Origin: Deuterostichococcus epilithicus
Taxonomy: Eukaryota > Chlorophyta > Trebouxiophyceae > Prasiolales > Stichococcaceae
Length of the DNA: 64,000 bases
Assembly: GCA_033439295.1 (NCBI GenBank)
Contig: JAVTLE010000021.1
Span: 2,418,009-2,482,008 of the forward strand
Reading direction: 5' to 3'
Position numbers and translations under genes: made by a program. Shown piece after piece: positions 1-56,882 of the stretch. The notes beneath the pieces were generated by a model. The model saw nothing but the letters and a program-made list of their open reading frames with translations. It did not search any database and was not told the DNA's origin. How positions within the stretch are numbered: position 1 is the stretch's first letter; each line of letters opens with the position of its first letter.

Positions 1-3000
1 TACACACCTGGAGTGCTCACACAGTGCCTCTCGTAACACAGGGGTTTGGCTGGGACGCGTGCGAGAAGGGCGGCTGGTGGAACATCGTCAAGGAGAAAAT
101 TCCTGACATTGCATCGGCGGGCTTCACGCATATCTGGCTGCCGCCGCCGAGCGAGTCCGTGGCGCCGCAGGTGCACCCCCTGTGCCAAACGATCGCAATT
201 CCGACAGCATCCACTTGCCTGTTATTGTCAATGAGGACACTCGGGCGCGAAACTCTTGCAGGTTGGCGGCGGCGGTGTGTCTGACGGCTTTGCACAATCC
301 AGTCAGCGCTCTTTGTAATGATGCACCGACCATGCGCGTGCAGGGCTACCTGCCGGGGCAGCTGTACAACCTGAACAGCAAGTTCGGCAACCAGGAGGAG
401 CTGAAGGCGCTGTGCGCGGCGCTGAAGGATGCGGGCGTGCGGCCCGTGTGCGACATAGTCATTAACCACCGATGCGCAGACGCGCAGGACGAGCAGGGCA
501 TCTGGAATCAGTTCAAGTGCGGAAACCCTGCACTTCAGCTGGTGGTCCACACCTCATGCACGTTGAAGCTTGCTCATGCTTGCCACACTGGCTCGCCGGA
601 ATAGACTTCAATGTTTGCACGGCGTGCAGACGCATGCCCCTGATGCATGTCTCCTGTGCGGCATTGTGACGCCTCTTCACTTTGATTCTTCATTCAACAG
701 GGACGACGTGGACCACCCGGGCAAGAGCGTGGCTTGGGGCCGCTGGGCCATCACCAACAATGACCCCGAGTTTCGTGGCAAGGGCGCCTCAGACTCGGGC
801 GACGACTATGGGCCGGCGCCAGGTGGGGGCCCTGCCGTAATGTCACCACCAGCATGGCGAGGCTTGCTGTGCGGGCGAGCATTCGTGTGCCACAGTCCAT
901 TGCAGCGCGGCGGCTCGGCCTTTGGTCAGCTGCATGCATGAGTCTCAGGCCTGCGGATCTACGCCTGGATCCGTTCAGCAAACTATGGCCACCATGCAGA
1001 CTTGGACCATTTCAATGACGACGTCCGGGAATCGCTCACGGACTGGATGTCGTGGCTCAAGTCCGAGCTGGGCTTCATGGGCTGGCGGTTTGACTTCACA
1101 AAGGGCTTCGGCGCCAACTTTGTCGGCGACTACATCCGCAACACCGGCTTTGGCGAGGCTTTCAACGTGGGCGAGTTCTGGACCGACCTCAGGTGGGCTC
1201 AGCTCAGCAGCGAGCCGCACTGCATCAGTCACGATCGCATGAGCTCGTCCTCTGTGCGCCTGCACCGGCGTAGTGTGCGTCAATCGCATGCACAGACCGC
1301 TTCTGCATGGCGACTGGCCAGTTGTCCGTCTTGGCATGAGGCCACGCTCCCAGACCAGCATGGATCACGCCGACCGCTCATCTGTACCCGGGGATGCGGC
1401 GGCTCCGCAGGTGGAGCGACCAGGGACTGGAGTACGACCAGAATGGGCCGCGGCAGACGCTGGTGGACTGGATCAAGGGCGCTGGGGGCGTGTCGACCAC
1501 CTTCGACTTCCCCACCAAGGGCATCTTGCAGGCATGCACATTTTTGGAGAACACGGCTGCAGAGAATCTCGTTTTATGTAGCAGGGACCTGTCTCTAAGG
1601 TGTTCGATGTGGGAGACGCTGCTGTGTGCAGCCAGCGCGCTGAACATGTGTGTTTGAACTGCTCGTTGACATGTGACTGTGTCTGTGCACGCAGGAGGCA
1701 GTGAAGAACACAGAGTACTGGAGGCTCATCGACCCAGGCAAGCTTCCTCTTGCCGCTGCCCGGCCAGTTGGCACAGCGTGACAGAGGCGGCCGCCAGACA
1801 AGCTTACCCTGGTCCCAGTCTGCGGGCTGCAGCTGCCTTTGCGAGTGCTTGCTCGCTGTCCAAGCATGTCCATCCTACCTTGAAGATGCTCGGCAAGAGT
1901 CTTCTCTCCTGCCTGCCAGCTGGATCATGAGACAGAATTTCCCACCACCTGCAGAGGGCAAGCCGCCAGGGCTGCTGGGCTGGTGGCCGTCCAAGGCGGT
2001 AGGTTCCTCACCAGATGCGGGAGTCTTGATGCTGCATGCAAGCAGAGCGCCATGCGCCATGCCTTTGCACACATGACACTGTACCCCTCTCACACTCACA
2101 CAGCCACCGCTGAAACAAAATGCTCTCGCATGCATGCAGGTCACCTTCACTGACAATCACGACACAGGTGTGGCTCCTTCTCTATCTGGACTCCTGCGTG
2201 CTGTCAGTGCAAACATGCACCTGATCGTGCCCCCCTAGGTGTCCAGCAAGATGAGGGGAGCTGGAAGTAATCACTGAAGCCAGTGTCAGCGCTGAATCGC
2301 AGGCAGCACGCAGCAGCACTGGCCCTTCCCCAATGACAAGACGCTGGTCGGCTACGCCTACATCATGACGCACCCGGGCATTCCGTGCATCTTCTGGGAC
2401 CACCTGGTACGTTTGCAGACCTCCACATTCAGGCCCGTCATATCTGCAGACATCATTCTGGCAGCCAACAGCCATCAACTGGCGCTGAAGTCGTTACTGC
2501 GCATGGATGCCTGCACATGCACCGGAACGTGACTCGAAACCCGTTAGTGACAAGCTGAGCAGCACACTGCTGCTGTAGCGCTTGCTGATGGCGCCTCATG
2601 TGTTGATCCATCCCTGTTCCCTGCCTCCAGTTCCAGCACAACCAAGAGATCCGCGACTTCATCAAGCTGCGCGAGCGCTGCAACATCCACTCCCGCAGCA
2701 AGGTGCGCGGTCGGAGGCATGTAACCCTTGGAGCAATTATCTGGTGTATGCATTGCACAATGTTGGGGTTTGCTCCTGGCCACTCGGCCAATGACTCCGC
2801 CTTGTGCCTGTCGAAGCAACAATCGGCATGTGTCATCGCTGCATACACCAGATCCTTATGTCCTGGTGCTGGCTTGGTGCACTTGCAGATCGACATCAAG
2901 ATCGCGGAGGCAGACATCTATGTCGCCGTCATCGATGATAAGTGCGCACCCTCTTGGGAAATGCTCAGTTGCTAATAGGTTGTGCTGCTGTAATATGCCA

Positions 3001-3184
3001 CTTTGATGCCAATGGGCAAATGGGCGCATCGCTGCCGTGCTCATGCGCCATATAATTCTGCCGCTGCAGGGTCACCGTCAAGCTGGGCCCGCGGTATGAC
3101 ATGGGCAACCTGGCGCCGAAGGAGGAGGACGGCTGGAAGCGCACCCTGAAGGGCGACGACTGGGCCGTCTGGGAGAAGCAGTAG
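1..3184 (+). CDS. AMY: Plant-type alpha-amylase (GH13), 5' partial
   Basis: Endo-acting alpha-1,4-glucan hydrolase of starch breakdown. About 12 exons are readable: to 170, 344-516, 701-822, 1000-1192, 1411-1531, 1695-1737, 1955-1998, 2140-2167, 2303-2406, 2631-2702, 2889-2941 and 3070-3184. They give the GH13 landmarks in order: [21 protein letters not shown] (region I), [10 protein letters not shown] with the nucleophile Asp, VGEFW with the acid/base Glu, and [17 protein letters not shown] with the third catalytic Asp. The C-terminal beta domain ends in AVWEKQ then TAG. Order and spacing match land-plant AMY2/AMY3. The first frame is open to the window edge, so the N-terminus, and with it the choice between secreted, plastid or cytosolic enzyme, cannot be judged. 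Introns after 1531 and 1737 begin with GC rather than GT. The call is secure; edges of the smallest exons may be off by a few bases. Confidence 0.93.
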
Positions 3185-3705
3185 ACTGCTGCTGACGGAG
3201 CTTGTAAGAGCTGCGGCGCGTGAGGGCCGCATCGTCCTCTCGCCGCGGAGTGGCAAGCAGTGCACGACTGAAATTGTGCACACATCTCTGGCACTTAGAA
3301 CTTATGGCCATATTTCGGGTGTGTGCATATCACTGCGTAGATTCATGCAGTGGGTTTTTGCGATCAACAATGTCAGTTCGCTTGTGATGGTCAGCATGCC
3401 ACCCCATGCCACTGCTGTGGCAGAGGGGTCGAGCGCTCCAGTTGCACCGCCAATCTAGGCAGACACCGAAGTGTCGTGTCGGCTCGGGATCAGAATTTGT
3501 TTGGTCTTCTACTTTTCGGTCTCAAACGTGTCTTCCGTGCTGGCGGCTAGGAATTCTGGCCGTTCCTTTGGCGTCCCAGCCTTTGAAAGCTGTTGTCTCT
3601 GCCTCCATTTCGCAAGATTAAAATGTCACCGCATCAGGCCACACCTGTCAGTCACTCCCGGCGAAGGACCGGCAGACCCTCGAGCAGAATTTCCAGGCAC
3701 CCCCC

Positions 3706-6662
3706 TCACTGCTTCTTGTAGACGCAACCCTTGAGTGCGGGCCATGCGATGTTGCCGCTGGCAGTCGCGCGCTGCTTGCGCGCCTCCAGCACCACGAACA
3801 TCTTGTTGAACACCTTCTTGGACGCCAGCTTGAAGCCCAGCTGCTGCAGGCACTTGGTGAAGGCCAGCATGACCCAGTCGCCAGCGGGGGTCTTGGCATC
3901 GCCTTCGGCCGTAGGCTGCGGCCCAATGGCGTCCGCGGCCTGCCCCGCAAAGCGGCTGCGCACCTCGCAGATCCACAGCCAGCCCTTGTCCTTCAGCACC
4001 CGGTGCGCCTCCTGCACGGACAGGAGCAGAGGATCCTACATAACATGAGCAGCTCGGCTTGACAACTGACGCAGCCGCGCGGTGGAGACCGCGGCACCAG
4101 CCCGATCAAGCAAGCGCCCCGCAAGGCCAGACGCTGCAGAAGGAACAGGGGCCGACGACGACACGAACTCTTTTGCAGCGGCATGCAGCGTAGAGAAGCA
4201 ACAGGAACCACAGCCAAGAGCGCAGGGTGCGTGGGGTACGGAACACAACTTCGGACGCATCAACGAACCTGTCACGCAAATTGCTTAACCACCTAAAGGA
4301 AGGCGTCAGAGTCGGTGCTGAGGCTCCAGCAGACGGGTGTCACACGCAAGCACACGGGGCTCCCTGACAGCACAACCATCTGACACTCAGGAGGTTGTCG
4401 TGGGCGTCTCAGGTCTGTGAAGCTCAGGGCCGCGCCTTGAGGAACGCGCCGTAGTCGGTGCCCATGAGCGCGAGGCAGAACACCGCAACGTCCACGCTGG
4501 CGGCCGGCAGTGGCACATCGGCCATGTTGCAGGGCGTGACGGCTGGGGCGCCCGCCACCAGGTCGAAGCTGTGCACCGTCTGTGCCGCCTGCGCGGCGAT
4601 CGCCGCGTCGCCGCAGCCGAAGTCCGCCACCACCCAGTCTTTGGGCTTCGCCTGCAGCAGGCAGAGGTGCTGTCAGCAGCGCTGGCACACAAGCCAGCGT
4701 GAACACTGCAGATCCTGTATGCCAGGCGACCCGCAAGAACGACGAGCATGCAGGAGGCGGCAGCAGCGGGTAGCAGCGGCCGCAGCGGCCGCAGCAGCGG
4801 AGGGCGTCTAGTGGTGGAGGCAGCACAGCCAACTGCTTTCAATTGCGAGCTCGGTGCCACATGTCCCCGGAGGACTACAAGCTGCAAGGTCGGACAACGG
4901 ACCCTGAGCCAGGCGACGGCGGCGGCCACGGGCTGCTGCGGCCACTCAGCGGCCTGCCGCCGGAAGCCCTCGTGGTACTGGCTGTACAGGTCCGGCTGCT
5001 CCTGCGGTCGCCGGCGACAGTGGCATGTCTGGCTTTGTTTACTCGCAAGCTGAGTCCCTGGCAACAGCTGCCTGATGACTGTTTGCCAACTGTGAAACCA
5101 ACCCAGTGCTAGCTCTGAGTGGGTCTTCGATGCAGCAAGATCAGCACACAAGGAGGATGCAGCTGTCACCAGGGCGAGCGATCAAAAGGGAGCCGGGAGG
5201 CTCGAGCACCTGTAGGAAGCGAAATGCGGCATCGCCGGTGCTGGTGTACAGCTGCTCGTTGAGCCACCGGAAGCGCCCCCCCTGCAGCTTGCTGCGCATC
5301 CTGTCCAGCAGCTTGCTGCCCCCCGACGCCTTTGCCGCCTCTGCCGGCTGTGCTGTCGCTGTCGGCTTCACCGCTGATGTCGCCTCGGCAGGCGCGGCCG
5401 CCGCTGCCGACGGTGCGGCGCGCTCCCCCTGCCGCTTGGCGCCCTGTTTCGCCGGCGCGATGGCGGCCGCCGCCTGCTGCGACGGCTGTGAACCAGCAAG
5501 AGTTCCATGCTGCTGCTGCTGCTGCTGATGCAGGCGCTTGGCCTTCTTCTTCTGCTTCAGCGTCAGGCGCGGCGCCGACGGCTGCGTGAGCGCCTGCCCG
5601 AGCTCCGAACCAGCAGCGTCAGCCATGACTTTGCCTGGCGGCGCCGCCGCTGCTGTGGTGCCAGCCGTGGCCTGCTGCGCCCGTTGGCTGCCATCTCCTG
5701 CCGCCGCCGCCGCCGCTGCTGCAGCTGCCGCCTGCGCCTTACGCTTGCGCTTTCCTGGCCGCGGCTGGGGGGCCTGGTCCACTTCAGGCCCGGCCGTGGG
5801 CTGAGCCTTTGCCGCAGCAGCGTGCGGCACTGCCATCAAAGTCTCGCTAGACTGCTGAGGAGGGACGTCCGTGAACTTGTCCTTGCTCCTGCGCTTCTGG
5901 GGTGGCGGCTCCCGCGGGTTGGTTGCTGCGGCCACCGGCTCCTGCGGCTTGGGCCTGCTGGCCTCTGCTTTTTCTGCTTCCGGTCCTGCTGCCGTGTCCG
6001 CCTTGAGGTTGCTTTTGCGCTTCCGCTGCTTCTCTGCGGGCGGCGGCTGCGGCTCTGCTGCTGCGGCCTCTATCGCCTGCGGCTTGGATGCGCCAGCCTC
6101 TGGTCTGGCGCTGACCGGTCCTGCCGAGGGGTCGGGCTTAAACTTATTCTTGCTGCGACGTTTTCTGGCGGGATACTGCAGGGCCTCTGCGGCCGGCAAG
6201 GCGCCACTGGCCGCCGCTGACGCTGGCGGCACCTCCGGCGCAGCCGCTGCCGCAGTTTCAGCTGCTGAGGCTTCTTTGTCACGCGCAGGCGTGGACCATC
6301 TCGATGCTTCCACGTGTCCGTTCGCGAGTGTCCCTGCACCTCAAGCATGCAGCTGGCCGTCAGGAGACCCGCCGCTAGCACAAGACGCTGCACTCGCCGC
6401 AATGCAGGAATGACTATGCAGTCACTGCACGCACGACGGTGTCGGATCGACGAAGTCTTCCCATCAGCATCTGTGCACCTGCAGCGGACCGGTCCAGCCT
6501 AACGATACCAGCCACAAGGTCCTCCAGTTGCCGCTGCCGCCGCTTGTCGGTCTTCCTGCTGCGTTTGCCCGGATCTTCTGGCTGCTCCGCCTCATTGTCC
6601 GGGTAGTCTACTGATGCATCTCCGAAAGCTTGAAAGCCCCATTCAGAGGCTAGGTCCACCAT
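3706..6662 (-). CDS. RRP8: RRP8-like nucleolar rRNA methyltransferase
   Basis: SAM-dependent methyltransferase of the Rrp8/nucleomethylin family, which makes N1-methyladenosine in large-subunit rRNA in the nucleolus. Five exons on the minus strand: 6662-6479, 6333-5210, 5001-4903, 4651-4436 and 4011-3706. The ATG at 6662 opens an acidic/basic N-terminus, followed by a roughly 250-residue Lys/Arg/Ala-rich tail with repeated KRRSK-type basic patches, typical of nucleolar proteins. The conserved core follows: LLDRMRSKLQGGRFRWLNEQ, then DLYSQYHEGFRRQ, motif I VADFGCGDAA, then VHSFDLVA, PLPAASVDVAVFCLALMGTD, EAHRVLKDKGWLWICEVRSRF and a C-terminal VFNKMFVVLEARKQ. This is the full Rrp8 domain in the usual order. 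The donor of the intron after the 4436 exon reads GC in the gene sense. The 5' end faces the phosphatase gene 2.5 kb away. Identification is firm; the start is the only ATG fitting the first exon. Confidence 0.9.
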
Positions 6663-9191
6663 GACAAGCGTCGGGATGTTGTCGAAAATTTGCCGGAATG
6701 TGTCGCGTTTGCACAGCTGGAGCCCCAGCCGCGAGCGGTAAACCTAGACTAGGAACTTGCGAGACTACTTTTGGGGTCTCGCGAGGGCGTGAAAGCTGGT
6801 AATGAGCTATGAATGCGGCTTCGAAGGTGACCCTTGATCGGGAAACTCGTGAAAGGGGAATTGGTGTCTGCCCATCGGCGGACTAGGACACATGCATGCA
6901 TGCATGCATGCCATGCATGAAGGAGCTGCATCCCCATTTCCTGTTGTCTCGCACCGCTGCAAATTCTTCGTTCTTTCATCGTCGTAGACAGAGGTGTGGC
7001 TCGCCGGCTGGGAGAGCCCGCGAGGGCTGCGACCGCATGGTGCCCATGACTGAACCGCGCGCACTCAAGGTGCAAGGTTCAAGCAAGGTTCCCATTCTGT
7101 ATGTGAAGGTCTGGTACCCCGTGTCTATCCCGTGTGTGACTTCGACAGCATCGGTCTTCGTGACCACGTTGCGTCCCGCTGGGCTGTAGACGCATTATCA
7201 CAACTCGTTGGCGCGGGCCGCACATTGCTGGACATCAATACCAGTCCGGTCATGCAGCACATTGAGCAACAGGTACTTTGGGTCCACAGCACGCCAAAGG
7301 ATGCTCACTAGGGTCCGGCTGGCCGGGCGTGCAGCGCCACGGGAACATCGCGCAAGCTGCGACATCGGCGATCCAGCGTCACGTGGCGCGCACACACACA
7401 TGTGGTGTGTGTTCCTCGTTGCTCGCTGCCTGGACGCCAGGTCGGTACCGGCTGCTCATAGGCAGCAGCAGCCGGCACATCACATGCCCACATGAGCCCT
7501 GGTTGACACCTGCATTAATCCTTCGGTCTTGAAACCAATTATGTTTGGACGCTTCCATCTGATGATCATTTCAATGGCACCGTTGTCTGCCGCACGTGGC
7601 TCACAGGCTGCAGCGCAGTGCAACGTCCGCACCGCCCCCAAGAGCTGGCACCGTGCGCGGGTTCGCGCCGGAGCAGTATACCAGCCAGTAGGCCGCCCAG
7701 CAGCAGGATAGAGGTGTTGCTGCGACCTCTGCCATGGCAGGCATTGGAGAGGTGCGTGCCACATGGCATCACGAGCGCCACAGCTGAAGCGCTGCTGCTG
7801 TGTCGCCGGCCATGCCCGCGGACCTGGATGCAACGGCTGTCTCCTTGCCTGCAGTCTGGGATTGATCCCCTTAGCTGGTCTCAGATATCAAAATTGTTAC
7901 CTAGCAGTCTTCAGACCAGCTGTAGACGCACCTTTTGGGGCACATTTCCGGCTGAGTTGATGACTCATCAGAAGCATATTTCGCAGGGCGAACATTCCCT
8001 TCGTTACCAGCTGGCCGTCCTCGGTCGGCAGGTGCCCGCACGGACATAACACAGCATCCCTCCTCACGAGCGGTGGGGATCGTGGGACGCAGCGTCGCGG
8101 CGGCCAGCTCAACTGCACCTGTCCACCAGGTGGGGCTTTCTACATCACTAATGAGAGCCGACCAGCTAGCCCGGTTGCGTCGACGGCTGGTCGAGTACGA
8201 GCGCCGCCAAGCCCAAGGCCCGCCTGCTCTCCAGTCTATTTGCATGGTTATTGCACCATCGCGATCAGATCGTTCGCGACGCTGCGCCGCGCGTCCTGTT
8301 TAGGTTGTCATGGACGACCTGATTTCTGGACGACCTTTCATGATGTCGTCGTCGTCGTGCACGCCCCGCCGTGCAGCGCACGCCCGGTTCTCGGATGTGT
8401 GCTCGGCTACGGGCTCTTCACATGTCAATATCACACTGTGGGTGACCGCCGTGCGCCTCCTTTGCGGCTTTCAGCGCAGCCAGGGGCCGTTGAAATTTAC
8501 AGTGTCGGTCCTCGATGACTGGACGCAGCATGCCAGTCACACGACCTCCTGCGCGGCAGTGCTTCCGGTTGATGGTACGGGATTTCTAGCCTAGACGCAG
8601 CAGTATAGAGACTGAGGACACGAGACGTCAGACCAGTACCACAATTTCGGAAAATGATCGGCAGTCACGATCAGCAGTGACCGCGATGCAGTAAAAGCTT
8701 CAGCACAAGCAGGTTTCAGTCCTGTAATATTGCTCGGTTGCATCGGCAGCAGTTGGGCGCCCGCGACCGCCGGCCCTTTCCAATTGGTTCGTTCATGCAC
8801 GTGGACGGAATATTTCCGCGCACGGCGGCTAGAAAGCTGTACTGCGCGCTTCTAGGCCGATCTGCTGCATTTTAGCCTTGTGAATCCTCTGGTCAGCGCG
8901 TCGTGGTCGTGTGACCAGACCCGAGACCATCTGAGTTGCACTATGGCGTGCTATGTCCGGCACCGTGTCACCCCTTCGAGCGCACACGCATCAGATGCAG
9001 ACTCTGCCAGGAGCCTCTTGACATCTCGTTCGACCCTCCTGCATGTCGCCGCCGCGATCGGACGCCGGTCCGAAGATGCTGCACGTCACCTGCACAAGCT
9101 CGTGCGCATGCATGCGCATGTCGTGCTATCGTCATGAGCCCTTTCTCCCTTTCCGTGTGCAGGATAACAGCGGCTCGTACCCCACGTCATC
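6663..9191. other. Intergenic, no recognisable gene
   Basis: This 2.5 kb separates the divergent RRP8 and purple acid phosphatase genes. Open frames here are under about 145 codons, overlap on both strands, have the skewed Arg/Ser/Cys/Ala composition of chance frames in GC-rich DNA, and chain into no conserved protein. It presumably holds both promoters and 5' UTRs. The only clear structure is a short ATGC simple repeat near 6891. I saw no tRNA-like fold or transposon ends. Confidence 0.5.
6891..6918. repeat. (ATGC)n simple repeat
   Basis: About five uninterrupted CATG/ATGC tetranucleotide units followed by an imperfect copy. The unit is self-complementary, so the run could form a hairpin. 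It lies about 230 bp upstream of the RRP8 start codon. Confidence 0.8.
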
Positions 9192-21420: not shown

Positions 21421-22010
21421 TAAAAAAAGATGTGCGTTGGTGGATGGGCAAATCACAGCCCAGCAGCTGGGCTTGGACGCGCCGCCGTAGGGGCAGCGCC
21501 TTGTCTGCACTTGTACAAATACCGTGACCTCTTCTGACAATGCAGACGTGTGACTCTGTTGCGCGATCTTCTTGCAACAATGGCAGGCTCATAAACCTGT
21601 TGGCATCTAACATTAGCTGCCTAGATGTTGACACGTTGGTGATTGTATCTCTAGGTAGAGGCAATACCAAGACATGAAGGAACATCTCTTGGGTGTCTTG
21701 GGTGCGCAATTGGGTCGGCCATGTTGAGATCTCGCCTACATACAGCAGCTGGTTGGGTACACTCGTTGCGTTTGAGCACTTGCTCCTGCTTTTAATAATG
21801 AAAGAATCGAAATACATCTCTAGCATCCTTGAACCCAGCTTGACGCTGGCCGCCGCGACAAGTCCGCAACTACTAGAGCAACCAAGTTGGCCCCCAAGTG
21901 CCGGCGCCTCAGCGCTCCGGCTGCCGCCGCCGTCTACGAGATTGGCAGCGTGCGCCGCACAGACCACCACCCAATCAAAACAATGTTTCCCCTCCTCTTT
22001 TCCCCAGCCA
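21421..22010. other. Convergent 3' intergenic region
   Basis: About 590 bp between the stop codons of the MYB gene (+) and the AP2 gene (-). It probably contains the two 3' UTRs. No convincing coding sequence or other element was found. Confidence 0.5.
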
Positions 22011-24565
22011 TCAGCAGTCGGAGGGTGGGTCGTTGCCAGCATCGGCGGTGTCGTCCGCCTGTTTCGGGCCGCCGCTGCGCTTCACCCGCAGCATGCGCTG
22101 CGCCGCCTGCCGCCGCCCATCGCTGCGCAGCGCCTGCACCAGCTCGTCCTGCGGCACGGCAACAACAGGACTTAGGACCAGGGTTCAGGGCGCGCGAGCA
22201 CGCGAGCGAGACAGAGGGCCGCTGGGCGAATTCAGCCACCTGCTTACAAATCAGATGTGACGGTCGACACACGAAGGCTGCGCATTCAAAGCGCCGCAAG
22301 CACCTCAAAGGCAGCCCGGTCATTGTCACGTGCAGTCTGCTTGTGTGCCGCAGTTGCCCCGCCGAGCAACATTCCGGAAGAATTGAGCGCTTTCAGGCCG
22401 CACCTGTGTGATGGACTGCAGCCAGGGGATGTCAGCCTCGTACTCGGACGGGTCGAAGTTGGTGATGCCGCCCTTGACGCCAGTGCTGTTGTGCAGCTCG
22501 CACCACAGCATCATCTTGTCGTACGCCCGCGACGCCTCCGTCTCGTGGTCGAAGCAGCCCAGCGACGTCGGCTTGCCGTTGCGCCTGCGCTCGTGGGGAC
22601 AGACAGTGTGCGTGTCAGGGACAGCTCATCCAGTCGGCTCGTGAGCAGCTCATCATGCCGCCCAACCTCAATTGCACTGTGCAGCTCCTTGGAAAGGTGT
22701 GCGCATTTCTGGGACGCGGCTGGAGCCTGTGCCTGCCCCGCCCAGGGCCGACTTGCGGGGGGTGTCTACAGCGCACATGGATGCGCCTGCGCTTGGATCA
22801 GACCCCCAGCTGCCTGCCTGCTCTCCGGAGGGCCGACAGCTGCACACGCCTGCGCTCGCTTCTGACACGGCTGCCGCTGCCCGCTGCCAAATGCACAATG
22901 AGGCGAGTCGGGCCAAGACCCTTGCCCAGGAGACCCACCGAAACTGCGCCTCCCAGCGCTTGGTGGGGAAGGTCTGGTGCACGCCGCGGTACTTGGAGGT
23001 GTAGGTGCGCCCCGAGGCGTTGCCCTTCGCCTTGGCCACCTTCTGCACCTTCTGCACCGACTGCCGCGTCGCCGGCAGCGCGTCCGGCCGCTGCAGCAGC
23101 AGGCAGACGGAAACTGAAGTCAGGTTTCCTGTCCTGCAATCGCACTGTGCTGCCGGGGAGCACCTTCGGCATCGACTGCCATGTCGCCGGCAGCGCGCTT
23201 CTCCGCTGCGCGCACCAGCCAGCAGTGCCCTTTAGTCGGTTTGACTTGCAATTGCATCGTGCCGCCTGGAGCACCTTTTGCACCAACTGCTGCGTCGCCA
23301 GCAGCGCATCTGGCTGATGCGGGGACATGCAGCGAGTGGCAACCGTCAGAGCAGTAGCAGGCTTTCCCGATGGTTTTGCGCGAGGCCAAGCCGCATCGAG
23401 CACCTCTTGCACTGTCGGGCAAGTCGCTGGCAGTGAGGTCTGCCGATGTGCGTACCCGTTCTGGATACCAGCAGCATGCTGCCTTGATGCTGCCCAAGCA
23501 AAGAGCAGCCTGATCGCCCTTCAACCAACCGTGCGGTGAGGGTGCTGCTCTCGCATCTTATCGCAGCAAGAAATGGCGGTCCCTCTTTTGCCTCCAGCCA
23601 GATGTCCTGTTCAGCAACTTGCGAACCGGGTAGCGCTGGCGGTAGCTGATTGCACTTCAGCGACCATGAATCCGGCAGCGCAGTCTGCAGCCTCCGCAAC
23701 TTGTCGACCCCACCTTCTCGATGAGGGGCTCGCTGAGCAGGCGGCGGTGTGCGCTGCCGACGGCGCGGTACTTCCGAACATGCGCCCAGTCGGGGACCGA
23801 GACGCCCAGCTCCTTGGCGATGTCCTTGCCGCCACGGCCACCGCGTTGATAGATTGCCGGCAGCTGCGGCAGCGTCCTCGCTGCCATCTTCAGCCGCACC
23901 TGGCATCGTGCACTGGCAGACTCGGCTCGGCAGCGGCGGGCTTGTCAACCACGGGTCACGCACACCTCAGACGCCAGGTCGCAGCGGAGGCGAGAGCGGG
24001 CCATGCATCGGGAGTGCAAGGTCCGTTGAGCATCGAGAACGTACAAGTGGGTCGGGCTGTATGTGCGTCTTTGATGCTGAGCGGTTGCCGGCAGTCGGCG
24101 TCAGCCCAAGCTGCCAGCTGGGCAGAGGTGTGCCGATGCCCGGGCTGCACAAAAGGGCAGATGCATTCGAGCGGCAGTGTCACGGTGAGTGTCAACTGGA
24201 AGATTTGTGACAGCTGCGCGGCCAATCTGCGCAAGCATACTGATGATATTCGGGGCCCACGTGCAGGACGATGCGCTCGGCATCTGGCAGTTCCGTCTGC
24301 ACATCACTGCAAGTCAGACCCACCTGAGCAGCTCGGCGGCTCTGTAGGTGGCGGACTTGATGGGTGTGCGCCACTCTGTCAGTGAAGGCATCGGCTGCAT
24401 GTCAGCAGGGGCGCCCGAGGCTTCCGGCACCGATAACCGTGGCATCGCAGCTGTCTCAATACCCTTTGGCGCTGTCACGGTGTCCAGCGCAGCGGGCTGC
24501 GCGATGGTGACCGGCATTGCTGCCTCGAGGCTACTGCTGCAGTCTGCGTGCCAGGGGCCAGCCAC
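22011..24565 (-). CDS. AP2/ERF-domain transcription factor with tandem mini-exons
   Basis: Putative plant-type DNA-binding transcription factor. The AP2 domain is split by one intron: exon 23090-22939 encodes TSKYRGVHQTFPTKRWEAQF, and exon 22584-22404 continues NGKPTSLGCFDHETEASRAY, then ITNFDPSEYEADIPWLQSI. The YRGV, RWEAQ and AYD/NF elements of the family are all present. Exon 22148-22011 gives a basic C-terminus ending PPSDC-TGA. Upstream, exon 23912-23714 encodes a segment with GGKDIAKELGVSVPDWAHVR, which I do not recognise, and exon 24565-24324 encodes a Pro/Ala-rich N-terminus with SLTEWRTPIKSATYRAAELL. Between them lie three extra copies of the start of the AP2 exon, each with its own acceptor and donor. 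All junctions join in phase. The start at 24565 is the first ATG of the most 5' plausible exon and is uncertain. The gene is divergent from the UHRF1-like gene. Confidence 0.8.
23049..23439 (-). repeat. Four-copy tandem array of a 36-42 nt exon
   Basis: Four related blocks lie at 23439-23404, 23313-23275, 23205-23164 and 23090-23049, spaced 111-129 bp. Each follows a CAG acceptor and is followed by GTG, and each encodes a version of x-A-L-P-A-T-x-Q-x-V-Q-K: TSLPATCPTVQE, PDALLATQQLVQK, RRSALPATWQSMPK and RPDALPATRQSVQK. Lengths are 36, 39, 42 and 42 nt, all multiples of three and all phase 0 at both ends. The fourth block reads straight on into the AP2 exon. The first three are followed by GTGCTC-type donors, so intron edges were duplicated along with the exon. 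Confidence 0.8.
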
Positions 24566-25096
24566 GAGGCTGTAACAGCAGCGCCCCCCTTCAAAGGCTG
24601 CTCGCTAAGGCTGAGCGCCGCTCACTACCTTTCACCGCCCTTAGCACGTTCGAAATGCCGCAGCTCTCCTTCCTGCCCCTTTCGATGAGCATTACAAATT
24701 GCACGAGTTTCGAGATTCAGGGCAGCCAGCGCCCGCAGGAGATCAACCAGAGGTGTCTGTAAGGATGCTGCGGGTGCCGGCACACGCAGGGGCTGCTGAG
24801 CGTTGTGGTGCTGTACAAAAGGTGCCACCTGTTTGCATCTGCTGGAGGACGCTTCGCGCAAACCCTAAACCATTTGCACCTGTGGAAGTGGATCCCCGAC
24901 AGGCAGAGAAACCGGAATCCCCAGCGCAATTTGAATTGCCTGGACTGGCCCAATGGTCTGGCGCACTGGCGCACAAGACGACTGCAACCAACCTCCCGCC
25001 ATGTAATTGTTTGTCCTCGAAGCCTTAAAGCATCGCATTCAGCTGCACTCGTTCCTTTCGACATCCGGCACAGACTGACCGGTTCGAAAGGCCAAC
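24566..25096. promoter_or_regulatory. Divergent promoter region, AP2 / UHRF1-like
   Basis: About 530 bp separate the predicted starts of the AP2 gene (-) and the UHRF1-like gene (+). The region should hold both promoters and 5' UTRs. I saw no TATA box or other motif specific enough to report. Confidence 0.4.
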
Positions 25097-52037: not shown

Positions 52038-54259
52038 GCAGAGCTCTAGGGAACAGTTATCACCAGTGCTGGATGCTGCCAGAGCGCCCTGGGGCGAGGT
52101 TGGCTCTGCACTTCGAGCTGAGGCGCTGCCGTCCTGCCGCCCTGCACATAGGCAGGGCTGACTGCACGGGATGCACACATGTAGTGAGCGGGCGTTGCAG
52201 TGCGAGTGGGAGTTTTGACAATCGCTTCGAGATTCCAGTATTTAAGTACCAGCATTTAAAGCCCAACAGGCTTCCTTTCACAGATTCTGCGCACGCTTTG
52301 GATGTGCCTGAAGTCCAATATTTACGAACGCCCGAGTGTACTTCGCCCCATCTGGGCGTTGACCTTCGTGGCAACCGCTTTTAGCGCTTGTTCATGGCCC
52401 AGCCATCTGCGGCGCTTCGCCCAGAGTCAATGATGCGGTGCGGACACGGTGCGGACTCGGTCGTGTCGTGGAGCCAGGAGATGGCCGAAACCAGCACACG
52501 GCCTTTGTAAAGACATATTCAGCAGATGTGCCGCCGTCAAAGTGTATTATACCGCGGTGGGAGGAGAAAAATCGTGTCGCCCCGAGACCTGCTTAAGGCT
52601 AAGTCGTGCCCCAGTGGTTTGCAGCTCGAGCTCCTCGTCGCTGCCTCACCGCGCTTACAGCTAACCCTACCAGTAGCTCATGCGTCGCTGAGCCAGGGAT
52701 GTAGTGACACCGTGACAAGCAAAGCAAAGCAAAGTCGGCGGCGGCGCTCGCTGTCATGGATGTCCCGCCACCCCGCCAAGCACCGCAACGGCGCTTCCTG
52801 GTTCTATTATATTACTTACCTCTCGTAGAACGCCAGGTGTACGATAAAATTGCAGCAGGCGCAGCACGCACTGCCCTTCCCTGGCTGGGCCTGGCTCTGA
52901 GACAGCATATCTGCTCCTGCGCCGTCCGGCGGACTGCTGCACCTGATTGAATGCCTCTGCACCCTTGCCCGCTCCTTGGCTGCACCAATCCTGACGTCAG
53001 CCGTAACACAGGATTGAAGTCAGTCAACAGTGTCCAAGACCACTATGCGGGTAACTAAGCTTTTGCGGTTTGATGACCCCGCATCTTGGGCAGCGCTAGA
53101 AGGATTTCACCTCGAAGGCTGCTTCCTTCTGCCGCGATAGGCGCAGCAGCACGGCTGGGTGAACTGAGAGGCGCTGCACTGGCGCCTGGCACACATCTTA
53201 GTGGACAATGAGCATGGAGGGTCCAGCGGCAGAAACCGCTCCCATGCGCAGGTGGAACACCCTCTTTCCTTGCAAGGCTGACCCTGCTCATGAGGCCATG
53301 ACGTCGCTTCGGCCTGCACGCCCCGTCAATCCAGCGACAGGAAGCTGCTGGGCCCTATGCGCCTCGAGCCATGGGTGAGCGTCACTGGTCCATGCGGCAT
53401 TGGGTGCCTCGCCTCGCCGGAAGGACACAGCTCTCCGAGCTCATTGGTGCATGAGGCATTGGGTGCCTCGCCTCGCCGGAAGGACACAGCTCGCCGAGCT
53501 TCGGTGGGCCTGGACCAGGCGGCAGGGCGGTTGCCGGTGGCATCGGTCGCGCGATGCCGCCCGCCGCCCTGCCGCTGGCGCGGCGGAATGCGGCTGATCG
53601 CGGCTGCTGGGCAGCACGGCAGCAGCTGTGGCAGCGATGTCGCTGCACTGCAGCGCTGCCGCCGGCAGAGCTGCGACAGCCGCTGGCTATGCGCCGACAC
53701 CCGATCGGCTCCTTGACACCCGAGGTGCCATGGGCATGATGGGTGCCGGGGCAGGTGTGTGCCGCAGCTGCTCGGCGGCTGCCGCTGGCGGTGCTGCTGC
53801 TGCAGCTAGCTGAGCGCCGCCATCCGTTGGGCCGACAAGCGTCTGAGGCACTGCGAGCGCAAGCAGCAGAGCATCCTACGCATTCTGCGCAGGTGATTGC
53901 TGCTGTGGGGTGCGCCGGTTGCTTGCCGCTGGGCCGCCGCCGAGGTGTACTGCCGCTCAGCGGACAACAGCCCGTCCAGGACGAGGCGTTAGTAGACCTC
54001 AATTGGCCTGCCGCCCGGAGATGGCCCGCCATCATTTTGGTTGGTCTCTTACGGCATTACATCCCAGTCTCAGCGAAGCACGAGCGACTACTAGGGAGTC
54101 AGTGATGTTTCATCAAGGAGACAGGTGCTTCAACACTGATGTTGGTACCATAGTTGGTAGCACTTCTGCGCCCCATCCGCGTCATGTCCGAGCAAAAGTT
54201 GCACGCCGCTCGGCTCGGAGCACAAGCCTGATTGTGAACCAAGTCTGAAACGTGTTCGT
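52038..54259. other. Convergent intergenic region, 2.2 kb
   Basis: Lies between the stops of ThrRS (+) and the SVR1-like gene (-). A TGTAA element near 52506, the usual green-algal polyadenylation signal, lies about 470 bp after the ThrRS stop. The region from 53390 holds a two-copy 60-bp repeat. Longer frames (minus 54035-53382, plus 53743-54105) are Arg/Ser/Cys/Ala-rich on both strands and resemble no family. Confidence 0.45.
53391..53510. repeat. 60-bp tandem repeat, two copies
   Basis: Copies start at 53391 and 53451. They share the segment GCATTGGGTGCCTCGCCTCG and the following GGAAGGACACAGCTC with very few differences, and diverge toward the right-hand end of each copy. It lies in non-coding DNA. 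Confidence 0.85.
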
Positions 54260-56882
54260 CTACAAGTCCTGAGCGCCCTTGTCCAGCGTCCGACGCACTT
54301 CGTTGGGCTTGAGCGGCCGCGCCGAGCCCAGCGTCAGGTCACTGGGAATCCGAAAGCCGCCGATGCGCACGCGCTTCAGGAAGGTGACCGTCAGCCCCAC
54401 GTTGCCCAGTAGCGTCCGTACCTGTCCAGTCAGAACGTGTACTGACACCTTCGCAAGCTAGACATCGGACGCTCACACTTGAGGTGCCAGGCCCTGTCAT
54501 ATGTGCTCTTGGTGTGTATGCTTGGCAGGCAGGCGGCATGGCGGCAGGCATGACAATTTCAGCGTATGACAATTCGTGCGCGCTGCTGCTCTGGGATGAG
54601 GGGCAGCCACAGATGCCTCCGTCTGCAGCAGGGGCCTTGTTCAGGATCTGTGGCATGGGCGCACCTCGCGGTTGCGGCCCTCAGCGACCAGTATGCGGAT
54701 CTTCCGCTTGTTGTTTGACGGGTCGCTGTTGTCGATGCCCACTGCCACTGGCTGCACGTGCAGGCAGGGTTGCACTGGGTCAGCTTGGTTCCGTTTGCTG
54801 CTGCTGCTTACGCGTTGCGAAACGATCGCAGCGTTCCGCAGCCGCAGCTCGTGCGTTTCACAGCGCCCGGCGACGGCCTCCAGAGCAAAGCTCTTCCAAA
54901 TTTTCCCACAACAGTGTGTGTTCGCCCGGGCAGTGGTGCAGGCGCTTGGCGTTTACAATCACAACATAGAAAGGCTGCACCTGCACGAACGCGCCGTCGA
55001 CTTCGCAGCCCGCGGCCACCAGCTCCAGCTGCCGCCGCGTCGCTGGCTGGTCCACAGTGGCGATGTACTCCTTGGTCAGCCCCGTGGACGGGTGCATGAC
55101 CTGCTGCGCCCACTGGCCTGCGGCGCGCAGCCGCCGGCGTGCACATCAGCATTTTCTCCCGCAGGTCACAGCAATAGGTTGTTTGCAACCAAGGCTCAAC
55201 GATGTGCTCGTCTGGCTTGGGGGCTGGGGGGTCGAAGGCTCGGACATGGTGGGATGTGGTAGGGACGGAATTACAGGGTTTGTCCTGCAGACAAAAGGAG
55301 GTGACACCGCACCATCGTTGGTGACGAACAGCAGCCCCACGGTCTGCACGTCCAGGCGGCCGACGGTGAACAGGCGCGGCAGCAGCGTCCCCCGCGGGTG
55401 CTCCTTGCGCCAGCGCCCCATCCATGGCTCCAGCAGCTCCGCCACCAGCTTCCCGGCGCCGCCCTCCCCCTCCCCCGCCGCGCTGGTGCACGCGTAGCCC
55501 TGCCGCAGGCAGATCGTCGAGTCATGCTGCGGGTCGCCTTTCCGGCCAAAGCGTGGATGGCAGAAGCTCAGAGAATAGTTTGGGGACTCTAGCTCCCTCA
55601 CCCGCCGTGCTGGTGCACATGAGGCCCTGCCAAAAGCGGATCATCCAGCCATGTTCTGGGCCCATGATCTGGCTAGCTTTCTGATGGTGCATGGTGTCCG
55701 TGAGGTCGCTCTGTGGACTCCAGCGCCCAGGAAGTGCGGCAAGGACCCAGAGCGAAGCCCCGGCACGCAGCGGCACGCTGCTGAGACAGCGACCAGAGGC
55801 CCCCGCAAGAGCTAGGGCCTGGCCCTTGGTCCTGAGCTGTGGTATCGCATCAATGACCTCAAACTGCCAGACGTGCGTCCTGTCGCACACACACGTGCCG
55901 CCCACCTTGGGCTTGTTGACAGCAAAGTAGAACTTGCGCTGCGGCTGCGCCGTGACCTGCTTGCCCTTCACCTCAATCTGCGACGATCACAAGCTAGATC
56001 AGCATTTGCTGAGATGCAGGTAAGTCAAAGAGTCGCAAATCAGCCTTCATATCAGCGTTGCATCGCTTTACCGTTCACTCTGGTCCAATACAGTCGAGCT
56101 ACCTTGTCTGTGAAGGGGTGCGCGAGCGTCTGCGGCAGCATGACCACCTTGCCATTGAGCTTGACATCGCCCGAGAATATGAGCTCCTCTGCTGCTCTTC
56201 TGGATGCAACACCTGCTGCTGCCAGCACCTGCGGCAATGACTGCCTGGATCAGAGACGTTCTGATGCAGGAACGGTGTGAGGCAGGTATGTTAGTGAAGG
56301 CTGTGACATTGGACCTGTTGTTCTGCTTGTGTCCAGGCCAATGCCGTCCATTCCACACGCACAGCTGGCATTGTGGCGCCGCCACACATCCTCTGCAGCA
56401 ACATAGCGGCAAACAAGGCCACTCACCTTGCTGAGGCGTTGGGGCCCAATCTCCTGGTGCGCCGGGCCGGTCTTGCTGGCAGGCCGCCGCTTGACCTGGG
56501 CCGACGGCTTCCGGATAGCTGTGATCAGCAGGACGCTCTGCCTGCCGCTGCTGCTGGTCTGGAAGGCTGCTGGATGCACCACCGGCTGGTGGCAAAGGCT
56601 GCCCAACTGCGAGCCCAGCGCCTGCACCACGAGTTGCCAGTTGCCAGCCGGCATGAGAGGCGGGCTTCGTGACACCCTGGCAGGAATCATGAAGCCAACT
56701 GCACCCCTAGATGCAGACGTGTGTCGATGTGGGAGCCTTCCGAAACTGAAGGCGGACGAACCCTGCACGTCCTCGTGGGCAGAAGGGTGGCTGCGGACGC
56801 CACGGCGCCAGACGCTGCGCGCTGCCTGCAACTGAGCAACCTTGCGTCCAGCCGCCAAGCCGCCTGGGCTGTGCTGCTGCAA
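54260..56882 (-). CDS. SVR1-like plastid rRNA pseudouridine synthase (RsuA/RluB family)
   Basis: Converts a uridine in rRNA to pseudouridine. Arabidopsis SVR1 of this family acts in chloroplast rRNA processing. Minus-strand exons that join in phase: 56427 upward, 56228-56103, 55977-55906, 55499-55313, 55117-54981, 54751-54665 and 54421-54260. They encode an S4 RNA-binding domain (VLAAAGVASRRAAEELIFSG, DVKLNGKVVML, IEVKGKQV) and KFYFAVNKPKGYACTS. The catalytic block follows: PRLFTVGRLDVQTVGLLFVT with its Asp, NDGQWAQQVMHPSTGLTKEY, then KRKIRILVAEGRNREVRTLL and RVRIGGFRIPSDLTLGSARP. The C-terminus is LDKGAQDL-TAG. The upstream frame to 56882 is a basic leader (IRKPSAQVKRRPASKTG) compatible with a transit peptide, but the true start may differ. 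An insert relative to bacterial RsuA lies in the GEGEGGAGK region. The enzyme call is firm. Confidence 0.88.

Follow-up and report, generated by a model that had tools for sequence, protein, structure and literature searches.

Tandem copies of an AP2 exon head in the green alga Deuterostichococcus epilithicus are probably mostly bypassed, and similar copies lie upstream of other predicted exons

The window discussed here is a stretch of 64,000 nucleotides from contig JAVTLE010000021.1 of the green alga Deuterostichococcus epilithicus (assembly GCA_033439295.1). Its minus strand carries a putative AP2 gene, with a tandem array of short exon-like blocks leading into the exon in which the AP2 domain begins. 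The six coding exons (Table 1) join to give an open frame of 316 codons and a stop. The exons from the array onward, joined by hand, match the AP2 profile PF00847 with an E-value of 4.9e-06 and 27.2 bits, which is under the curated cut-off of 33.3, and they contain the pattern YRGV...WEAQ...LG.F, which we take to fit the AP2 family. The gene model is that of a hidden Markov gene finder, self-trained without RNA on 282,834 bases comprising the window, 20 stretches of 10 kb and other AP2 loci, and then retrained with the target (21900-24600) excluded from training. The splice sites that it learned unsupervised are (C or A)AG/GTGCG for donors and (T or C)GCAG/G for acceptors, and the 206 confident introns have a median of 218 nt. 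It over-calls short exons, the 5th percentile of exon length being 3 nt.

Between 23439 and 23049 on the minus strand there are four related tandem blocks of 36, 39, 42 and 42 nt, each preceded by CAG and followed by GTG, and all four encode ALPATxQxVQK-like peptides, as an earlier sequence-only reading of this DNA had described. It had also called the blocks multiples of three in phase 0, and copies 1-3 are indeed jointly 117 nt without a stop, so that any combination of them keeps the frame. That the last block is fused to the AP2 exon is likewise correct, block 4 being the head of that exon. The further statement that every block has an acceptor and a donor at its edges holds for copies 1-3, with weak acceptors in copies 1 and 2, but not for the fourth, whose GTGCAG is inside the AP2 exon with coding sequence continuing after it. 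This exonic AAG/GTGCAG at 23048 is at the 68th percentile of donors, and is thus a cryptic donor pre-existing in the exon.

The blocks start 129, 111 and 115 nt apart in array order (23439 to 23049). Their ungapped identities are 20/36, 23/36 and 23/36 for pairs 1-2, 1-3 and 1-4, and 26/39, 33/39 and 33/42 for pairs 2-3, 2-4 and 3-4, a range of 56-85% over the six pairs. The segment between copies 2 and 3 shares 50 of 68 aligned bases with that between copies 3 and 4 (z = 6.9, reached by none of 500 shuffles) and is homologous to it, and the segment between copies 1 and 2 has weak homology to both (p about 0.025). There is also a gapped self-alignment of about 150 nt at period 115, and in self-comparison the array pair scores 183, where three simulated order-2 sequences of 264 kb each gave no pair of 85 or above. 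The unit is thus tandemly duplicated, and because the inter-copy segments are themselves homologous, the unit of duplication is an intron tail, the 3' splice site and the exon head. The alignment of the four copies with their flanking introns, which the sequence-only reading had proposed as a check, therefore bears out its view that exon plus intron were duplicated and that this was not slippage inside one exon.

Tandem Repeats Finder reports only 9-nt repeats in the array (CACCTTCTG, 2.4 copies; CTGCACCGA), the divergence between the copies being too great for it to detect them. A second such array was not found in the 46.8-Mb assembly (21 contigs) by searches that score only the best candidates, the other AP2 loci having been located but not checked singly for arrays, and no further match to a block was found elsewhere in the genome.

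Table 1. Coordinates in the window of the AP2 gene model, the array and two duplications in other predicted genes; a slash marks the exon-intron boundary
Feature	Positions	Strand	Remarks
First coding exon (MPVTIAQPAALD...)	24324..24517	-	Single in one model, split in two when the target was excluded; joined frame open
Second coding exon	24045..24144	-	Gene model
Exon upstream of array	23714..23899	-	Ends in phase 0 at AAG/GTGGGG
Intron, 623 nt, if copies 1-3 are all skipped	23091..23713	-	
Copy 1 (TSLPATCPTVQE, 36 nt)	23404..23439	-	Most diverged; phase 0
Copy 1-copy 2 segment, 90 nt	23314..23403	-	
Copy 2 (PDALLATQQLVQK, 39 nt)	23275..23313	-	In frame, phase 0; good donor, weak acceptor
Copy 2-copy 3 segment, 69 nt	23206..23274	-	
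Copy 3 (RRSALPATWQSMPK, 42 nt)	23164..23205	-	In frame, phase 0; normal donor and acceptor
Copy 3-copy 4 segment, 73 nt	23091..23163	-	
Copy 4, head of AP2 exon (RPDALPATRQSVQK, 42 nt)	23049..23090	-	Exonic GTGCAG from 23048
Exon with start of AP2 domain (...YRGVHQTFPTKRWEAQF)	22939..23090	-	AP2 PF00847 match and gene model
Second AP2-domain exon	22404..22584	-	PF00847 match and gene model
Last coding exon and stop	22011..22148	-	Gene model
Young adjacent head-to-tail duplication in another predicted gene, period 59, 93% identical	53382..53500	+	Spans a predicted 3' splice site
Probable exon-head copy, pseudouridine-synthase-like gene	55595..55653	-	Other copy 55468-55526

We consider that copies 1-3 are probably mostly bypassed, decaying exon heads derived from tandem duplications across the 3' splice site. 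The sequence-only reading had proposed cassette or mutually exclusive splicing, and the form of this that survives best is that copies 2 and 3, but not copy 1, are real in-frame mini-exons, constitutive or cassette, that add 13-27 weakly constrained linker residues. We take this second reading seriously while doubting it. In its favour, the donors of copies 1-4 are at the 49th, 61st, 61st and 68th percentiles of those learned from the genome, and the acceptors at the 3rd, 4th, 30th and 57th, so that copies 2 and 3, in frame and stop-free, keep usable splice sites; copy 2 also contains a stronger internal acceptor that would start the exon at 23289 and leave 15 nt of it. Cassette or mutually exclusive exons are separate whole exons of equal phase, each with a working acceptor and donor. 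The array is not a set of such exons: block 4 is part of the AP2 exon, and block 1 has a 3rd-percentile acceptor and a negative coding score; blocks 2 and 3 are borderline with regard to acceptor and donor.

The gene finder calls copies 2 and 3 whole when the target is in the training set, and with the target excluded it still takes copy 3 in full but only the final 15 nt of copy 2, with copy 1 not called. This too favours mini-exons, but the target-excluded model also calls tiny exons of 10 and 38 nt in the next AP2 intron, and thus over-calls. The net log-odds for inclusion are -8.7 for copy 1, which does not look like an exon, +1.0 and +1.8 for copies 2 and 3, and +11.0 for block 4. Predicted introns (n=424) contain 0.134 phase-symmetric candidates per kb that score at least 10 before penalty, and shuffled sequence contains 0.093. 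The presence of two in the 623-nt AP2 intron exceeds chance, yet a copy takes over such a score from the real exon that it came from. Inclusion would also require some of the inter-copy introns of 69, 73 and 90 nt, and these are rare lengths, as only 4 of the 206 confident introns are of 73 nt or less and 6 of 90 nt or less.

The acetyl-CoA carboxylase gene provides a comparison. The minus strand of the sampled stretch L029 codes for the biotin carboxylase part (gene at L029:410-5881), and four exons (VEHPVTE..., ACARALAQAVGYVG..., DAEHIRLADQ... and GHVVAVRVTSED...) each have a decayed head copy upstream, so that the gene is a natural negative control for gene finding. Predicted exons without the copies align free of gaps to a solved carboxylase, both across ...MATPEDMRM/DAEHIRLADQ... 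(query 1-158 on 62-219 of 5i6i) and across ...ELNPRLQ/VEHPVTEM... (5-77 on 350-422). At these two junctions the genome has introns, of 608 and 804 nt, which hold head copies of the next exon; the exons beginning GHVVAVRVTSED and ACARALAQAVGYVG are two more with head copies. The copies must be skipped, because the exon junctions are gap-free against a solved structure and inclusion would break a conserved stretch. Skipping is thus obligatory in this one conserved gene, and we infer that the AP2 copies are mostly skipped as well.

The best decoy candidates in the carboxylase gene are the frame-changing DHKHMRLAGQRW, with 38 nt and a net score of +2.09, and the in-frame VQHPLLEKING, with 33 nt and a net score of +1.79; AP2 copies 3 and 2 score like them. 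As decoys that must be skipped score alike, evidence of the kind available for the AP2 copies does not show use. The gene finder called such decoys in the carboxylase gene as exons, which is a warning for annotators.

With regard to the evolution of the copies, if only the last one works then the upstream copies should differ from each other equally in exon and intron, and the exon should prove the slower part when they are compared with the last copy. We realigned the array with MAFFT as non-overlapping units. Copies 2 and 3 are identical at 26/39 exon positions and at 50/68 positions of the downstream segments (Fisher 0.51), so that they are equally diverged in both, with 20/36 and 37/68 for copies 1 and 2 (P 1.0) and 23/36 and 38/72 for copies 1 and 3 (P 0.31). 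The comparisons with the AP2 head give 35/42 for exon and 36/73 for segment in the case of copy 2 (P 0.0003), and 33/42 and 47/68 in the case of copy 3 (P 0.38). The pattern of identity thus appears to be mostly that expected if only the last copy works.

Constraint on the amino acids that the upstream copies encode is not detectable, the changes in copies 1-3 being those of a neutral simulation (P 0.21-0.55 under three mutation models). The lack of stops is unremarkable, as the simulated chance of a stop is only 0.15-0.41 per copy. All six differences between copies 2 and 4 are from G/C to A/T and five of them are CpG transitions. The GC content of copies 1-4 is 0.61, 0.62, 0.69 and 0.79, and that of the segments between them 0.60-0.62; coding sequence in the sampled genome is at 0.69 and introns at 0.60, which places copies 1 and 2 at intron level.

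Similar copies are found before other exons. The sampled set is the window plus 20 stretches of 10 kb, in all 264 kb from five contigs or 0.6% of the genome. For predicted exons of at least 60 nt with an acceptor, the head (12 intron and 48 exon bases) was searched for up to 300 nt upstream, and as a control exons and upstream regions were exchanged between genes. A head copy was present upstream of 24 of 392 exons (6.1%) at a score of at least 85, and of 35 (8.9%) at a score of at least 75, the swapped control giving 0.00% and 0.16%. Seventeen of the 24 include the acceptor and 7 match within the exon head only. Under a stricter low-complexity filter 4 of the 24 heads fail, and 20 of 354 exons keep a head copy. 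Head copying is thus recurrent in the genome, with several per cent of the sampled predicted exons affected.

The copies are in 13 of the 21 stretches. Three of the 24 are in the window, which was selected on the strength of its finding, and 9 are in the stretches L021, L024 and L029 together; without these three stretches the count is 15/353. In a scan extended to 1.5 kb upstream, 22 of the 45 listed matches are at 80-160 nt, and the swapped control gave 4 matches. Heads were matched downstream of themselves in 9/392 cases and exon tails upstream in 3/385, both counts including protein-internal repeats. Exon tails copied downstream across the donor number 8/385 at 85 or above and 14/385 at 75 or above (swapped 0.05% and 0.26%), which is fewer than for head copies (P 0.006 and 0.003). 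Over the 264 kb, upstream head copying is about 2.5-3 times as frequent as downstream tail copying.

Of 670 60-mers that straddle acceptors, 4.48% are matched upstream and 2.39% downstream, the 60-mers overlapping and thus not being independent. The upstream figure is 0.65% for intergenic 60-mers (n=2766), 0.60% for those inside introns (n=4629) and 2.16% for those inside exons (n=2684). Self-comparison of the 264 kb gave 63 spaced tandem pairs (period 60-250) of 85 or above, low-complexity coding repeats, including the top pair, being among them, and three simulated sets of the same size gave none. A number of the 63 straddle predicted 3' splice sites. An earlier self-alignment with lenient gaps had produced drifting alignments of kilobase length, with 140 matches in the null set and 222 in the real one, and was replaced by stricter scoring. 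The median gap to the previous exon is 414 nt for exons with a head copy (n=23) and 226 nt for those without (n=351; P 0.0045), in part because a longer gap offers more room in which to find a copy.

Most of the head copies do not look coding. Some decoys had been called as exons, and 5 double-counted pairs were therefore removed by hand from 30, leaving 25 pairs of copy and functional head in which enough of the exon could be aligned. Indels are present in 14 of these and change the frame in 10, and none of the 11 indel-free pairs has a stop. The mismatch rates at the three codon positions are 0.137, 0.223 and 0.262. For the indel-free pairs pN/pS is 0.72, computed before the double counts were removed; this is near what we would expect, with no computed null, for one free and one constrained copy, and far from that for two constrained copies. 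We had considered that an exonic GTG might invariably mark the end of a copy, as in a copying mechanism linked to splicing, but dropped this since several run past the GTG or end without one.

The sequence-only reading had inferred that the number or choice of units may vary between transcripts, and a role of the array as a generator of isoforms is not supported. Candidates of the carboxylase gene that are skipped score alike, the amino-acid changes are as in neutral sequence, the upstream copies have little or no extra exon conservation among themselves, introns of 69-90 nt are rare, and the same architecture recurs before other exons where it is often frameshifted.

We suggest instead that a segment running from the end of the intron through its 3' splice site to about 45 nt into the AP2 exon was duplicated repeatedly to give three extra copies. 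The upstream copies would be stepped over, and each duplication would be nearly harmless, since splicing to the last acceptor yields the same mRNA as before. The copies would then remain in the intron, now of 623 nt, and drift toward intron composition. A GTG in the exon, by chance just after the duplicated head, would supply a ready donor, so that fresh copies would resemble, and may sometimes act as, in-frame mini-exons.

Several observations weigh against bypassing. The intron of 623 nt that full skipping requires is longer than any confident intron (0/206 are of 600 nt or more), although the two carboxylase introns with such copies, of 608 and 804 nt, reach this range. Copies 1-3 have no indel and no stop, all have the strong donor GTGCTC intact, and their acceptors are displaced by multiples of three, which is more than decay demands. 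When copies 2 and 3 are compared with their upstream segments, of which the 90-nt segment aligns poorly, identity is 28/42 in the exon and 32/68 in the segment (P 0.051), some extra exon conservation that leans toward mini-exons. In a partition test on copies 2-4 the exon rate is 0.40 times the intron rate (2 delta lnL 7.4). We had taken this strong constraint as proof of use, but dropped that view since a single constrained copy gives a like signal. Outside the AP2 gene, an exon-head copy of a gene like C5-methylases in L021 encodes the same 17 residues with 5 of 5 differences at third positions, which hints at use.

A broader form of the mini-exon idea is that the genome keeps copying 3' splice sites and exon heads in steps of about 95-165 nt, and that the in-frame AP2 copies are spliced in so as to vary the linker length before the DNA-binding domain between transcripts; taken as a whole this seems to us rather unlikely. 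A mutually exclusive cluster with one ALPAT block per transcript would account for blocks that are tandem, phase-symmetric and related, but strict mutual exclusion is very improbable, since block 4 is continuous with the AP2 exon and any other block would be added to it and not substituted for it, and copy 1 is not exon-like. We give equally little credence to a protein repeat with one unit per exon and every block constitutive: all four blocks do encode the ALPATxQxVQK-like peptide, but the coding score of copy 1 is negative and its acceptor is at the 3rd percentile, amino-acid conservation is no more than neutral, and no other block match was found in the genome.

With regard to known systems, bypassed exon heads as we envisage them come closest to a potato RdRp gene, described as having a duplication across a 3' splice site whose copy came to be spliced in as an exon by way of a cryptic donor of exonic origin (PMC4974935). 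In both cases the duplicated segment extends across an acceptor, from the last part of the intron into the 5' part of the next exon, and the new donor is a cryptic GT that pre-existed in the exon, in AP2 the exonic GTGCAG. The potato case is one recent duplication whose inclusion and splicing are backed by 106 RNA-Seq reads (PMC4974935), whereas the AP2 array has three extra copies, is older and is best read as mostly bypassed, in a genome with similar copies at other genes too. In Rogers-type intron gain, as outlined in the same source, duplication of an exonic AGGT segment supplies the splice sites (PMC4974935). There too a tandem duplication provides splice sites, but the AP2 acceptor comes from a pre-existing intron and not from an exonic AGGT.

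Tandem exon duplications are described as exon copies in tandem with introns, with unannotated intronic copies also present in animals (PMC9013439). The AP2 array is likewise in tandem with introns, but its copies are confined to the head of the exon, the remainder of which continues directly from the last of them. The proportion of exonic bases with a non-exon homologue of at least 80% is given there as about 2% in human, 0.08% in fly and 0.06% in worm (PMC9013439). For the predicted exons of our sample the figure by our own method is 0.37% (309/83,966), above fly and worm and below human, although the methods differ.

In Volvox carteri exon skipping is reported as 9.5% of events and cyn23 as having mutually exclusive exons, so that such splicing occurs in green algae; tandem-duplicated exon heads are not mentioned in the accessible part of that account (PMC4378016). 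The micro-exons of AP2/ERF genes are also very short, and are described as enriched in the AP2 domain and mostly from land plants, but the present blocks precede the domain and all repeat a single exon head (PMC7714060). In the literature searched on algal alternative splicing, duplicated or decayed exon copies and intron gain, with subscription journals mostly outside the search, we did not find the pattern for this or a similar genome.

With about 6% of the sampled predicted exons having copies of their own heads, from 93% identical to nearly erased, the stages of the process can be seen side by side. The genome thus allows tests of how good upstream acceptors are passed over by the spliceosome, of the growth of introns and of how often a decoy turns into an exon. 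Under the broader form of the mini-exon idea, extrapolation from the 264 kb would give several thousand exons with decoy heads, which would lengthen introns and give a standing stock of nearly ready mini-exons.

Some further duplications may be useful for comparison. The two copies of the young duplication in the window (53382-53441 and 53441-53500, plus strand) are directly adjacent, and give two acceptors 59 nt apart, which is no multiple of three. The pseudouridine-synthase-like gene (54981-56654, minus strand) has one exon that matches PF00849 with an E-value of 3.7e-05 and 24.4 bits, under the cut-off of 26.8.

In the case of L021 the region 300-5100 is very rich in tandem copies. The repeated segments (MKALDLYCGCGGL-like; pairs 1988/2254 and 2159/2391) resemble what we take to be motif I of C5 DNA methylases, and the methylase exon head LAAFVREWRAKER has more decayed copies. 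In L024 (6390-8312, minus strand) neighbouring predicted exons have head or tail copies in introns, one of them on the donor side (8059-8140 / 8184-8265).

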